This document shows, in pieces, positions 21,993 through 50,035 of a stretch of 64,000 bases of DNA (position 1 is the first letter of the stretch; every line of letters begins with the position of its first letter). The position numbers were made by a program, and so were the translations under genes. Under the pieces are notes generated by a model. That model was not told the origin of the DNA and did not search any database. It saw only the letters and a list, made by a program, of their open reading frames with translations. The stretch is from Thiotrichaceae bacterium (GTDB lineage: Bacteria; Pseudomonadota; Gammaproteobacteria; Beggiatoales; Beggiatoaceae). The stretch spans positions 62,001 through 126,000 of the forward strand of contig JAABRD010000008.1 of NCBI GenBank assembly GCA_011391085.1. The letters are read 5' to 3'.

Positions 21993-22157
21993 GGTAGTGA
22001 GGTAATGTGGGTGAAATGTCTGAACTCTGATTAGAATGATTTTCAGATGGACTCTGATTAGTCAAGCCTCCTTTCATAGCCCTCATTTAATCATTTCAAT
22101 CAGAGTTCAAGACCGACGAGAAACCGCACGATATTTCACCCAGATTGCATCACTACC
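21993..22157. mobile_element. MITE, family A, just upstream of nuoF
   Basis: 165 bp with ends GGTAGTGAGGTAATGTGGGT and ATTGCATCACTACC and an internal long inverted repeat around GAACTCTGATTAGAATGATT. Flanks are CCTTTTTC (21985-21992) and CATTTTTC (22158-22165): an 8-bp duplication with one mismatch. It ends 31 bp before the nuoF ATG. The apparent 51-codon N-terminal extension of nuoF is a translation of this element. Confidence 0.82.
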
Positions 22158-23934: not shown

Positions 23935-24014
23935 GATAGTGACGCACAAGATAGTGGTGACGGCCTTCAAACCTGTCAGGTTTAAATTAAATCACTATCT
24001 TGTGCATCACTACC
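23935..24014. mobile_element. MITE, family A (short variant), decayed
   Basis: 80 bp, ends GATAGTGACGCACAAGATAG and CTATCTTGTGCATCACTACC, interior AAACCTGTCAGGTTT. Same type as the 93-bp element at 41679, whose target duplication is exact; here flanks CAATTTTC and CATTTCGA no longer agree. Confidence 0.7.
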
Positions 24015-26177: not shown

Positions 26178-26530
26178 AGGTAGGGTGGATTAAGCGAAGC
26201 GTATCCACCTGTGTGTTTAAAGAGGGTGGATACGCTTCGCTTAATCCACTCCAGATGTGTTTAAAAATGGGTAGTGTTGCAGAGGTAATGGTATAGCGGT
26301 TTTGGAGTACGGAATTGATTCCGCTTGAAACGGAATCAATTCCGTACTCCAACGGAATCAATTCCGTACTCCAACGGAATCAATTCCGTACTCCAACGGA
26401 ATCAATTCCGTACTCCAAAACCCATAACCATTACCTTTGCAACACTATCTAAAAATGGTGGATACACTTCGCTTAATCCACTCCAGATGTGTTTAAAAAT
26501 GGTGGATACGCTTCGCTTAATCCACCCTAC
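26178..26530. repeat. GTGGATTAAGCGAAGCGTATCCACC repeats (family I) split by a MITE
   Basis: Inverted copies of GGTGGATTAAGCGAAGCGTA at 26183 and near 26225, then, beyond the nested MITE (26270-26449), two more copies of GTGGATACRCTTCGCTTAATCC separated by TCCAGATGTGTTTAAAAATG. The segment before and after the MITE shares that same 20-bp sequence, so a tandem family I array was hit by the insertion. Confidence 0.8.
26270..26449. mobile_element. MITE, family A2, with exact 8-bp target duplication and internal tandem repeat
   Basis: 180 bp with ends GGTAGTGTTGCAGAGGTAAT and ATTACCTTTGCAACACTATC. Flanked by TAAAAATG at 26262-26269 and 26450-26457, an exact 8-bp duplication. Inside are four tandem copies of a 22-bp unit ACGGAATCAATTCCGTACTC (plus CA), which is also family F of the scpA/scpB region. 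Confidence 0.85.
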
Positions 26531-32459: not shown

Positions 32460-32704
32460 GGTAGTGATGCAATTTGGGTGAAATATCGTGCGGTTTCTCT
32501 TCGTCTTGAACTCTGATTGAGATGATTAAATGAGGGCTATGAAAGGAGGTTTGACTAATCAGAGTCCATCTGAAAATCATTCTAATCAGAGTTCTGATTG
32601 AGATGATTAAATGAGGGCTCTGAAAGGAGGCTTGACTAATCAGAGTCCATCTGAAAATCATTCTAATCAGAGTTCAGACAGAGAACTCACATTGCATCAC
32701 TACC
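32460..32704. mobile_element. MITE, family A, with internal 74-bp duplication
   Basis: 245 bp, ends GGTAGTGATGCAATTTGGGT and ATTGCATCACTACC, flanks TAAAATTT (32452-32459) and TAAGATTT (32705-32712), an 8-bp duplication with one mismatch. The interior holds two near-identical copies of a unit starting GATGATTAAATGAGGGCT. It directly abuts the trmB stop. Confidence 0.82.
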
Positions 32705-40971: not shown

Positions 40972-41064
40972 AATTGGACCGTTGCAAAATTTTTCTACAA
41001 GACTATAATTAGTCAATTCACTCAACTAGCACACATGGTTCGATGAAATAAAAAGAGGTGTACA

Positions 41065-41180
41065 TATAGTAATATTCCTCATCACTTGTACCCCCCCAAC
41101 CCCCCCGCACGCGGGGGGGAATCACTCCCCCCGTGTACGGGGAGGCTGGGGGGGTATAAATGAGAAGGAATATTACTATA
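41065..41180. mobile_element. MITE, family B, G/C-run core
   Basis: 116 bp with ends TATAGTAATATTCCT and GGAATATTACTATA. Interior GTACCCCCCCAACCCCCCCG ... GGGGGG forms a long GC hairpin. Flanking bases are TA on both sides, compatible with TA-directed insertion but not provable because the ends themselves begin with TA. The next gene starts 26 bp downstream. Confidence 0.75.
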
Positions 41181-41206
41181 CCATGTCTATCAAAGGATAA
41201 AAATCT

Positions 41207-41584
41207 ATGGAACTATTATTTGAATCAACCGATAACTTCGAGAAAGACCTGAACCAATTCAATGACCAAGAAAAACACCAAATTGTGGCAGAGTTGAATC
41301 ATCGATGCGCCACTTTAACAAATGGGTTTAAAGCCTTTTATAGACGGGCGGTCCGCCCACTTAAAATCAAACTCAAGAATGGCTTTGAACCGAGTCTTTA
41401 TTCCTTACAGGTGAATCGAAATGTGAGGGTCATTCTCACCGTTGATGAAGACCCCTTATTCGAACAAATCATCATTACTCTGATGAGAGTGGTTCGTCAT
41501 CAGGACCTAGAGACCGCTTTTCGTGGAATAGCGGAATCTCTCTACCATGGTTATATTCACTCTATTTCTGGTCACTCACCTTAA
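41207..41584 (+). CDS. RelE/ParE-like toxin
   Basis: 125 residues. The strand pattern FEKDLNQFNDQEKHQIVAELN ... RPLKIKLKNGFEPSLYSLQVNRNVRVILTVDEDPLFEQIIITLMRVVRH is that of RelE-superfamily RNases, here with a C-terminal extension (AFRGIAESLYHGY). The stop is four bases before the start of the next gene, so the two form an operon. If the neighbour is the antitoxin, it is broken by a MITE. Confidence 0.75.
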   Translation: MELLFESTDNFEKDLNQFNDQEKHQIVAELNHRCATLTNGFKAFYRRAVRPLKIKLKNGFEPSLYSLQVNRNVRVILTVDEDPLFEQIIITLMRVVRHQDLETAFRGIAESLYHGYIHSISGHSP

Positions 41585-41587
41585 ATC

Positions 41588-42030
41588 ATGGCTGAAATCA
41601 AAGTATTGCTAGATGAATATGGGATTATTCACGAAGCTAACAAAATCCTGCCCGATGACCAACATAGACTGGATTTTTGGTAGTGATGCACAAGGTAGTG
41701 GTGATTGGCTTCAAACCTGACAGGTCTTCGAGACCTGTCAGGTTTAAACCACTACCTTGTGCATCACTACCGGATTTTTTGAGTGCATTGGCAGAACTAG
41801 AAGACAATTCTTGCCATAAAAACCAGAATTACCCGAAAACGAGACTGCATCGAGTGACAGGTTATGAGAAGGCCGTTTATAGAGCTGATATTAACAAAAT
41901 CTCAGGTTGGCGTTTACATCTTCAATTCGACAAAAAAACCAATCAGTTACGGCTAAAAGACCTTATTAAAGGTCAAAGACATGATGATGTCATAAAAGTC
42001 ATCAAATCAAAAAAGGGTCGGTATGAGTAG
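41588..42030 (+). pseudogene. partner gene of the RelE-like toxin, disrupted by a MITE
   Basis: From ATG 41588 the frame reads MAEIKVLLDEYGIIHEANKI, continues to LDF and stops inside the MITE at 41679-41771. After the element it resumes (LSALAELEDNSCHKNQNYP ... LHRVTGYEKAVYRADINKISGW ... KDLIKGQRHDDVIKVIKSKKGRYE). Removing the 93-bp element plus one copy of the 8-bp duplication restores an uninterrupted frame of 113 codons: CTG GAT TTT TTG AGT GCA. A second, N-terminally truncated homologue lies at 43003-43197. Family unknown; position suggests the antitoxin or second component of a toxin-antitoxin pair. Confidence 0.85.
41679..41771. mobile_element. MITE, family A (93 bp), inserted in a gene with exact 8-bp duplication
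   Basis: Perfect 23-bp terminal inverted repeats beginning GGTAGTGATGCACAAGGTAG. Flanked by GGATTTTT at 41671-41678 and 41772-41779. The interior is a palindrome around AAACCTGACAGGTCT. The clearest evidence in the window that these repeats are transposable. Confidence 0.92.
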
Positions 42031-42061
42031 AAAGGTGTGTAGAATGCCTCCGACACGATTA

Positions 42062-42097
42062 GACCTTGAAGGTTTTGAAAACTTTCAAGGTCTTTTT
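42062..42097 (+). terminator. rho-independent terminator
   Basis: GACCTTGAAGGTTTT / AAAACTTTCAAGGTC stem with TTTTT, 32 bp beyond the stop of the disrupted gene. Same sequence as at 40936. Confidence 0.78.
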
Positions 42098-42233
42098 AAT
42101 TGCAAGGTTGCAAAGTTTTTCAACTTATAATTGGCCATGTTAAAATGAAAAAAACGGTCAACAAACCCAGTTTTCAAACAAAGACTGTCGATATTGAGAA
42201 ACTGTCATTACACTCCTAAACTACGAGGCCAAC

Positions 42234-42455
42234 ATGCAAATTACCTTGGATTTACCTGATGAACTTGCCCAACAAGTGCTTACCCTTCCAGAACCGTCCC
42301 AGTTCTTGGCAAATCTTTTGAAACAGGTGCTACCAAACCGAGTGGCTACCGATTCCTGGGTGACTTTTTCCGCACAATTGGAACAACACGCGGTTGAGAC
42401 TGGTATTCCCGACCTTGCTTTACATCACGATGATTACTTATCTTTACCTCTATGA
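42234..42455 (+). CDS. putative antitoxin
   Basis: 73 residues. The N-terminus MQITLDLPDELAQQVLTLPE is a short beta strand plus helix, as in small ribbon-helix-helix-like antitoxins, and the C-terminus is acidic (HHDDYLSLPL). Overlaps the following PIN-domain toxin by four bases (ATGA), which is the usual organisation of VapBC-type modules. Family not named. Confidence 0.75.
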   Translation: MQITLDLPDELAQQVLTLPEPSQFLANLLKQVLPNRVATDSWVTFSAQLEQHAVETGIPDLALHHDDYLSLPL

Positions 42456-42865
42456 AAAAATATGTGTATGTGGATACCGCGGCACTCATTGCCCTGGGTA
42501 ACAAGACCGATAGTCTTCACCGACTGGCTAATCAAATCAATCAACGACTGATAGCAGAACAATATACGTTTCTTACCACGAATGCTGTCATTTTAGAATT
42601 GGCCAATGCTTTCAGTCGAGTACGCTACAAACCCTTGGTGATTAGTCTAATCGAAGCTATTCAACAATCTCCCAAATGGCATTACCTGACAATAGATGAA
42701 ACCTTGATGGCGCAGGGTCTGAGTTTGTTCAAACAACAATTAGATAAAGATTGGAGTTTAACAGACTGTCTTGGTATTCATCTCGCCCGGCGATTTCAAA
42801 TCACAGAAATTTTCACTACCGACCATCATTTTGAACAGGCTGGTTTCAAAATTTTGTTGAAGTAA
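42452..42865 (+). CDS. PIN-domain ribonuclease toxin (VapC-like)
   Basis: 137 residues. Acidic PIN residues are visible in VYVDTAALIAL (first Asp), LTTNAVILELANAF (Glu), DKDWSLTDCLGIHLA (Asp) and IFTTDHHFEQAGF (Asp). Typical VapC toxins cleave tRNA or rRNA. The ATGA junction with the upstream gene indicates translational coupling. Confidence 0.87.
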   Translation: MKKYVYVDTAALIALGNKTDSLHRLANQINQRLIAEQYTFLTTNAVILELANAFSRVRYKPLVISLIEAIQQSPKWHYLTIDETLMAQGLSLFKQQLDKDWSLTDCLGIHLARRFQITEIFTTDHHFEQAGFKILLK

Positions 42866-42871
42866 CCGTGT

Positions 42872-42973
42872 AGGGTGCGTCCCCCGCACCATTAGCCCGT
42901 TGTAGAAGCATCGAAAGGTGCGTGGGACGCACCCTACTAAAAAGTTTTGAAAACCTTCAAGGTCTTTTTAGTA
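42872..42973. repeat. family H palindrome and a terminator half copy
   Basis: GTAGGGTGCGTCCCCCGCACC / GGTGCGTGGGACGCACCCTAC (42872-42938), then GTTTTGAAAACCTTCAAGGTCTTTTT, a truncated copy of the terminator at 40936. Confidence 0.7.
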
Positions 42974-43002
42974 AGCCAATACCAAAACTTAATCCCGCTA
43001 AG

Positions 43003-43197
43003 TTACTTATATCTGATTTTCTTCCTTTTGATAACTTCACTGGCCTCATCATGGAGTTGTCCCGCAATCACATCTCTCAAATAAAGATTACCATCAATCA
43101 ATTGCAGGTGGATTCGCCAACCAGAGATTTTATCTATGTAGGCACGATAGACCGTTTGCTTAACACTTTCAATACGATGTAATCTGGTTCTCGGCCA
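43003..43197 (-). pseudogene. C-terminal fragment homologous to the MITE-disrupted gene
   Basis: The last 63 codons (RTRLHRIESVKQTVYRAYID, KISGWRIHLQ, LRDVIAGQLHDEASEVIK) align throughout with the C-terminus of the gene at 41588-42030. The N-terminal half is missing: upstream the frame runs into family K palindromes and then antisense of the next gene. A degraded paralogue. Confidence 0.7.
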
Positions 43198-43207
43198 ACT
43201 TCTGACC

Positions 43208-43292
43208 ACGAAGAAACTCCGTTTCTTTAAGAAACTGAGTTTCTGGGGTGCCGTTCCGGAAGACGTGCTAAGAAGAAACTCAGTTTCTGGGG
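43208..43292. repeat. clustered AGAAACTCAGTTTCTGGGG repeats (family K)
   Basis: Three copies: GAAGAAACTCCGTTTCTTTA, AGAAACTGAGTTTCTGGGGT and AGAAACTCAGTTTCTGGGGT. The latter two each carry GGGGTGCCGTT, a direct repeat of about 35 bp. They form the out-of-frame tail of the gene at 43227. Confidence 0.7.
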
Positions 43293-43568
43293 TGCCGTTG
43301 CGTAAGGTGAGGGTAAGAGGGTAGTGGAGGATGGGCCTGAAACGCGGGTGCCACCGTTTGGAATCACCACAGGTTGCGAAGAACCAGAACGACGCCATAA
43401 ATGCACAGTGATGACCAACAAAGCAGTCACCACCAGAAAAGCCAATCCAGCCCATACTGACCAGCCAAAAGTGGCCATCACCGCAAAAAGAAAACCGCCT
43501 ACGGTGGCAACAATGTTGAAATCGTTGATAATATTGTCATTCGATGGATGAGAAGAAGGAAGTGTCAT
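43227..43568 (-). CDS. small membrane protein, C-terminus extended into repeat DNA
   Basis: 113 residues, ATG start. Two membrane helices around residues 20-58 (IVATVGGFLFAVMATFGWSVWAGLAFLVVTALLVITVHLWRR). The N-terminus is polar and cytoplasmic-like. The last 35 residues (TAPQKLSFFLARLPERHPRNSVS) are translated from family K repeats and are probably not ancestral. No function can be assigned. Confidence 0.55.
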   Translation of the reverse strand: MTLPSSHPSNDNIINDFNIVATVGGFLFAVMATFGWSVWAGLAFLVVTALLVITVHLWRRSGSSQPVVIPNGGTRVSGPSSTTLLPSPYATAPQKLSFFLARLPERHPRNSVS

Positions 43569-48386: not shown

Positions 48387-48435
48387 AGAAAGGGTAAGTA
48401 CCGAAACAGAGATTTTACCGGCTTTTCAATCTTCG

Positions 48436-48562
48436 CCCTCACCCCCGGCCCTTCTCCCAGAGGGCATGGGGAGAAAACTACGGGTGCCGCCTGTCTCCCC
48501 TCTCCCCCTGGGAGAGGGGCCGGGAGTGAGGGTAAACATATCACCTACATTGCATCACTACC
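48436..48562. mobile_element. MITE remnant, family A
   Basis: The right end ATTGCATCACTACC and an interior CCCTCACCCCCGGCCC / GGGCCGGGAGTGAGGG like that at 1022 are visible. The left end is too diverged to place, and no target duplication can be found. Confidence 0.6.
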
Positions 48563-49870: not shown

Positions 49871-50035
49871 GGTAGAGATGCAATCTGGGTGAAATATCGT
49901 GAGGTTTCGCGTCGGTCTGGAACTGTGATTTATATGATTAAATGAGGACTCTGAAAGGAGGCTTGACTAATCATAGTCCATCTGAAAATCATTCTAATCA
50001 GAGTTCAGACAATACACCCACATTGCCTCACTACC
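49871..50035. mobile_element. MITE, family A, with exact 8-bp target duplication
   Basis: 165 bp, ends GGTAGAGATGCAATCTGGGT and CACATTGCCTCACTACC, flanked by GAATATTG at 49863-49870 and 50036-50043. Interior palindrome as in the copies at 21993 and 32460 (one unit). Confidence 0.88.

Follow-up and report, generated by a model that had tools for sequence, protein, structure and literature searches.

Passages of PMC4853749 that deal with giant sulfur bacteria report many split genes in these organisms, together with palindromic repeats of unknown identity. For Candidatus Thiomargarita nelsonii the same passages describe two MITEs, in hupL and in the dsrA intron, which resemble the elements examined here in being short, transposase-free, bounded by inverted repeats and dispersed in a giant sulfur bacterium's genome; the hupL element also splits a gene. 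The sections of PMC6382973 on Acinetobacter describe a comparable element, MITEAba12, which is likewise short, has inverted ends common to an autonomous IS, is flanked by target duplications and splits a gene. An ISAba3-like IS1 element treated there has a 24-bp end beginning GGTGGTGTTTCAAA and generates 8-bp duplications.

The window, by which we mean the whole 64,000-nucleotide stretch of DNA that was analysed, lies on contig C129 of a 5.77 Mb genome in 140 contigs, from a relative of these bacteria. A palindromic element of 93 bp interrupts a small gene within it. The features of the locus are listed below.

41207-41584, + strand: upstream partner gene, no confident family
41588-41677, + strand: split gene, N-terminal 30 codons (from alignment with homologues)
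41671-41678, + strand: 8-bp target duplication GGATTTTT, left copy
41679-41771, + strand: 93-bp MITE, type A, with two-box ends GGTAGTGATGCACAA + GGTAGTGGT around the AAACCTGACAGGTCT hairpin
41679-41702, + strand: left terminal inverted repeat, 24 nt, perfect
41710-41748, no strand: inner hairpin, 18-nt arms, 94 % complementary, 3-nt loop
41748-41771, - strand: right terminal inverted repeat, 24 nt, perfect
41772-41779, + strand: 8-bp target duplication GGATTTTT, right copy
41782-42030, + strand: split gene, C-terminal 82 codons and stop (from alignment with homologues)
43003-43230, - strand: second gene copy, C-terminal half only

The first-pass annotation had described perfect inverted ends of 23 bp. 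Their perfection was borne out (100 % complementarity between 41679-41702 and 41748-41771), while their length proved to be 24 nt. It had also noted the same sequence on both sides of the element, and this is indeed an exact 8-bp repeat, GGATTTTT occupying 41671-41678 and 41772-41779. No transposase reading frame was present in the element among the ORFs of the window. Folded as single-stranded RNA, the 93 bases formed one long hairpin of -68.7 kcal/mol (z -12.05), a value equalled by none of 200 shuffles. The 23-base end pattern, with up to three mismatches allowed, had four matches in the window, two of which belong to this element, against a mean of 0.00 in 100 shuffled sequences. Rfam returned 16 matches at E up to 1 across 41000-43500, all under their gathering scores, and a promoter scan of 41400-42200 gave a single promoter-like site, which lies outside the element, and no excess over shuffles. 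One frame is open across the whole element into the C-terminal half of the gene (41677-42030, 117 codons, with an ATG inside the element), so that a fusion peptide is predicted to be possible.

Removal of the element with one copy of GGATTTTT had been proposed to restore a frame of 113 codons, which the arithmetic reproduces (30 codons, one at the junction and 82). Two homologues align across both sides of the split. One, L087, is an uninterrupted copy of 111 amino acids on contig C58 of the same genome, with 56 % identity over 80 residues of the C half; the other, L085 in genome G019, has no insertion at the split site and has a TAA of its own near the C end. In this alignment column 30 is the last of the N half and column 32 the first of the C half, only the junction codon being absent, so the restored frame has the shape of real homologues. 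Both are free of the stop codons found at the split site, and no homologue was found that shares those stops in the absence of the element, the observation that had been named in advance as counter-evidence. The gene preceding L087 is 42 % identical to the product of 41207-41584, and L085 is also preceded by a similar reading frame, in which an internal stop was seen by eye. Relatives of the C half were present in three of the 57 genomes searched, the genome itself included, and a match in G007 covered 33 residues only. Neither Pfam (E up to 0.1) nor NCBIfam (E up to 1) gave a match to the C half. The second copy of the C-terminal half that had been pointed out nearby was confirmed at about 43003-43230 on the minus strand, with 50 % identity over 43009-43230 and without an N-terminal part; short palindromic GAAACTCAGTTTC repeats (43210-43306) occupy the place where that part would stand. 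Between the two copies lies a two-gene pair (42234-42865) that is VapBC-like by layout, its second gene having a PIN domain (PF01850).

Further copies of the 93-bp element, here termed type A, were collected from 25 loci, and the 20 full-length copies were aligned, the five partial ones being left out. An exact 8-bp duplication flanked ten of these copies, two had one mismatch, one had two mismatches and seven had no recognisable duplication; ten exact cases in 20 exclude chance. The copy in the window has perfect ends and a perfect duplication and differs from the type-A consensus at seven positions. Identity to it among the remaining full copies is 85-95 %, and the family is thus not brand new. 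Genome-wide, 71 type-A ends were counted at up to three mismatches, against none for the control. At L018 (G000:C85:63968 onward) the right side of a type-A copy stops at the inner GGTAGTG box, and an exact duplication of 8 bp, TGATTATT, comes directly after it; either this box was used as an end or 15 bp were lost by slippage.

Among named genomes, a set that perhaps does not include this one, the exact 22-base end occurred only in Thiomargarita sp. SulCav_PC08, in three stretches. One type-A insertion is common to the two genomes (L008, 1501-1593, in this genome; L091, 48-140, in SulCav_PC08) with the same 8-bp duplication, in a region that is 95.8 % identical over 1,415 aligned bases, element included; this insertion is therefore probably older than their split. 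It sits inside a free copy of the CTGACAG hairpin. The organism analysed here is probably a relative of Thiomargarita, which NCBI assigns to Thiotrichaceae. The flanks of the 41679-41771 locus had no match among the three SulCav_PC08 stretches. This is weak evidence that SulCav_PC08 has no element at the corresponding locus, as the MAG may lack the locus or have changed ends. The duplication, the inverted ends, the dispersed copies with duplications of their own and the two insertion-free homologues support the reading of 41679-41771 as a mobile palindromic element inserted into a gene. The intact duplication and the open C half are consistent with a fairly young insertion, without giving it a date.

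Type A belongs to a wider family of elements, mostly of 58-245 bp and without a transposase gene, whose common end is GGTAGTG[A/T]TG. Other members in the window are listed below; none is assigned a strand.

1022-1184: same end family, CCCTCACCCCCGG palindrome inside, duplication AGAAATTA
21993-22157: same end family, CTCTGATT interior, flanks CCTTTTTC / CATTTTTC with one mismatch
23935-24014: decayed second type-A copy, 80 bp, flanks unmatched (4 of 8 positions mismatched)
26270-26449: same end family, type B/C ends, GGAATTGATTCCG palindrome array inside, duplication TAAAAATG
32460-32704: same end family, enlarged CTCTGATT interior, flanks TAAAATTT / TAAGATTT with one mismatch
49871-50035: same end family, CTCTGATT interior, duplication GAATATTG

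In addition, a CCCTCACCC hairpin at 48435-48562 adjoins a single type-D end and is perhaps a decayed member of the family.

A census was taken in 864 kb (15 % of the genome), a non-random choice consisting of the window and 800 kb of five large contigs. A loose 13-base end pattern matched 319 times and its reversed control 113 times, so that about a third may be due to chance; single ends therefore prove little and the argument rests on the flanks. There were 102 pairs of facing ends no more than 600 bp apart, 41 of them with exact 8-bp flanks and 51 with at most one mismatch. At other lengths, exact flank matches among the 102 pairs numbered none at 4-7 and 10-12 bp and one at 9 bp. One pair of ends on C53, spanning 1,846 bp and with flanks that match, proved to be a duplicated gene and was removed before the count of 51. 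At that contig, L138 (G000:C53:69800-72000) shows a duplication with a repeat distance of 1,671 bp that takes in the start of a 577-codon frame; a family element follows one repeat copy, and the 8-mer CCATTTTG occurs three times. The duplicated sites (52, the dropped C53 pair included) were 74 % AT compared with 54 % in the sample and tended towards CAAATTTG. A crude open-frame test classed 14 of the 52 sites as coding-like, against 338 of 432 random positions. The surviving copies thus lie mostly between genes, and the copy that splits the gene at 41588-42030 is among the fewer inside one. The 51 elements flanked by 8-bp matches uphold the proposal that mobile DNA is among this genome's intergenic palindromes.

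The most frequent end was type D (GGTAGTGATGCAATNTGGGTGA), with 1,019 occurrences in this genome at up to three mismatches and none for the control. It was present in eight of 56 related genomes, with a maximum of 18. D-like end pairs in the loci examined from the relatives were mostly without surviving duplications (none of 15 exact, two of 15 with one mismatch).

A transposase gene flanked by these exact ends, for which the first-pass annotation had suggested a search, was not found in this genome, and the 864-kb sample held no autonomous element between facing ends up to 3 kb apart. The IS1 transposase profile PF03400 had no match in the genome at E up to 0.001; because the assembly is in 140 contigs, a repeated IS could be missing from it. 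Five loci with a long common left end (L093, L095, L098, L100 and L110) were considered as a full-length parent and rejected, their long frames showing no transposase by eye. IS1 transposases scored above the Pfam cut-off in 17 of the 56 relatives. Five proteins from relatives were scanned and all five matched PF03400, and NCBIfam assigned to the IS1 family the one full-length protein compared with it. A profile built from the relatives' IS1 enzymes detected one fragment of 156 amino acids (E 5.5e-8) in this genome, truncated where contig C83 ends. Against PF03400 this fragment scored 21.1 bits, below the cut-off of 24.1, and neither NCBIfam nor the phage collection gave a match to it; in the plasmid collection its best relative, 49.7 % identical, is a Gloeothece protein annotated as an IS1 family transposase. 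The end beside it, GGTAGTCCCTACAAAGTAATGG, is related to the MITE ends but is the best match to no MITE type.

In the relatives, an inward-facing GGTAGT was present no more than 150 bp past the 3' side of the IS1 match at 24 of the 28 loci with enough flank (two further loci had too little), compared with 700 of 12,000 random stretches from the same loci (5.8 %); within that distance it was absent at L186, L187, L200 and L204. Hand-picked IS1 ends (23 ends from 16 of 30 loci, and the C83 end) agreed with the MITE ends at up to 19, 19, 20 and 17 of 24 positions for types A, B, C and D, respectively, whereas random sites starting with GG averaged 7.7 with a 99.9th percentile of 15-16. Most of these ends were found by their likeness to the MITE pattern, which inflates the identities, and the GGTAGT test is the less biased check. 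As in type A, another GTAGTG box stands 14-15 bases inside several of the IS1 ends, and three IS1 copies in relatives (L177, L180 and L197) have exact 8-bp duplications. At L186, in G011, a D-like end begins 26 nt past the stop of an IS1 remnant.

The 8-bp duplications, the GGTAGT beside IS1 genes of relatives and the duplications of those IS1 copies make it most likely, with a probability of roughly 0.85, that the 93-bp element is a non-autonomous MITE with IS1-type ends, inserted by an IS1-family transposase acting in trans. Such an enzyme would recognise the ends of the element and insert it at an AT-rich 8-bp site inside the small gene, leaving GGATTTTT on both sides; the stop codons that the element brings into the upstream frame split the gene after codon 30. 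Since the transposase should need only the ends, anything between them would be carried along, and the abundance of intergenic palindromes would in part be explained by the resulting spread of any interior. The active enzyme may have been lost, may be unassembled or may lie outside the assembly. Several points stand against the IS1 reading. The genome appears to hold no complete IS1 transposase, only the cut C83 fragment; ten of the 20 full type-A copies are without an exact duplication; and type D, the most frequent end, is the least IS1-like, the IS1 end at L186 that resembles it failing the strict GGTAGT test.

Duplications of 8 bp are also made by IS6, IS1595 and ISL3, and the ends might merely resemble those of IS1 while belonging to one of these families. 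An IS6 parent was the one tried first because the type B/C ends recall TGTTGCAAA, which we take to be a feature of IS6 ends; PF13610 had no match in this genome, nor had PF12762 (IS1595) or PF01610 (ISL3). ISXO2-like (PF12762) transposases are reported for Ca. Thiomargarita nelsonii in passages of PMC4853749, yet the three PF12762 loci in the relatives have no convincing pair of such ends, whereas the relatives' IS1 loci do, and an origin from one of these three families is unlikely. Still less probable is movement of whole elements as REPIN-like palindromes by a RAYT (IS200-like) transposase. The interiors are palindromic and the ends contain GTAG, which would then be the tag of one REP superfamily, and PMC3733652 describes a GTAG-tagged superfamily. 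The exact 8-bp duplications at 41 of 102 pairs contradict this for whole elements, as IS200-type movement is not known to leave a target duplication, although RAYT could possibly have moved the free inner hairpins.

The interiors of 51 elements were compared after 26 bp had been trimmed off each end. Nine classes were obtained: CTCTGATT (26 elements), CCCTCACCCCCGG (17), a GGAATT...ATTCCG array (two) and six singletons, which include the hairpin of the 41679-41771 copy and an element of 58 bp consisting of little more than the two ends. Two of the singletons, being the two forms of the 93-bp element, do not count as independent. Most classes are self-complementary, and three are also common away from ends. 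Fold z was below -3 for 40 of 50 interiors (median -4.6), compared with six of 60 random 110-base segments (median -0.2). The second form of the 93-bp element folded no better than shuffles (z 0.5), from which a hairpin is not obligatory. As a query, the 93-bp element had matches in at least 19 of the 56 relatives, and among the matches listed these covered mainly its middle; one match, an H1 hairpin (the hairpin of the window copy) in G001, extends to the right end and is accompanied on one side by end-like boxes.

Counted in 300-base bins, CTCTGATT was free in two places, within end pairs in 35 and beside a single end in three; the corresponding numbers were 9, 35 and 15 for CCCTCACC, 16, 8 and 11 for the GGAATT array and 9, 3 and 1 for H1. 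Hairpins may have been captured by the ends, inserted into older MITEs or escaped from dead ones. A tentative proposal, to which we give somewhat less than an even chance, is that one IS1-type end pair repeatedly took up unrelated palindromes and spread them, so that several families of intergenic palindromes are carried by a single miniature transposon system that is now orphaned; perhaps hairpins are favoured as interiors because folding brings the two ends together. It is also conceivable, and likewise a little short of an even chance, that nothing was captured, in which case the free palindromes would be worn MITEs without ends and the different interiors would be old lineages of a single MITE. 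According to the part of PMC10969869 that treats QMITE2, its truncated copies come to resemble REPs, and the many interiors beside one end alone (15, 11 and 1 of them in the last three classes) and the one-sided boxes of the G001 hairpin fit such wear. However, the GGAATT and H1 palindromes are more often free than paired, and in the relatives H1 was matched, among the matches listed, mainly away from the ends.

The elements described here give part of the palindromic repeats in one genome of a giant-sulfur-bacterium relative a concrete vehicle, with one end family, one duplication length, a probable IS1 parent and several exchangeable interiors. The spread of non-coding palindromes thereby becomes a testable question, and one split gene is explained. 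A family of IS1-type ends that enclose several palindromic interiors, at such copy number, was not found described in the open-access literature searched, and the term IS1 is absent from PMC3852290. MITEs, including one that splits a gene, are already known in Ca. Thiomargarita nelsonii; the aspect that may be new, and which is not claimed firmly, is one end type with several unrelated palindromes. By description in the relevant passages of PMC4853749, the hupL element differs from those found here in having direct repeats of 10 bp, inverted repeats of 19 bp and a suspected PD-(D/E)XK parent, and the dsrA-intron element in its TATA-type ends. MITEAba12, as presented in sections of PMC6382973, differs in having 9-bp duplications, an ISAba12 parent in the same strain and one interior. 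REPs and REPINs are similarly abundant, mainly intergenic palindromes, but the whole elements here have constant 8-bp duplications. The IS1 family of the relatives is alike in ends that start GGTAGT, in many cases with another GTAGTG box 14-15 bases further inside, and in 8-bp duplications (L177, L180, L197); the elements here differ from it in being mostly 58-245 bp long and in carrying palindromes instead of a transposase gene.
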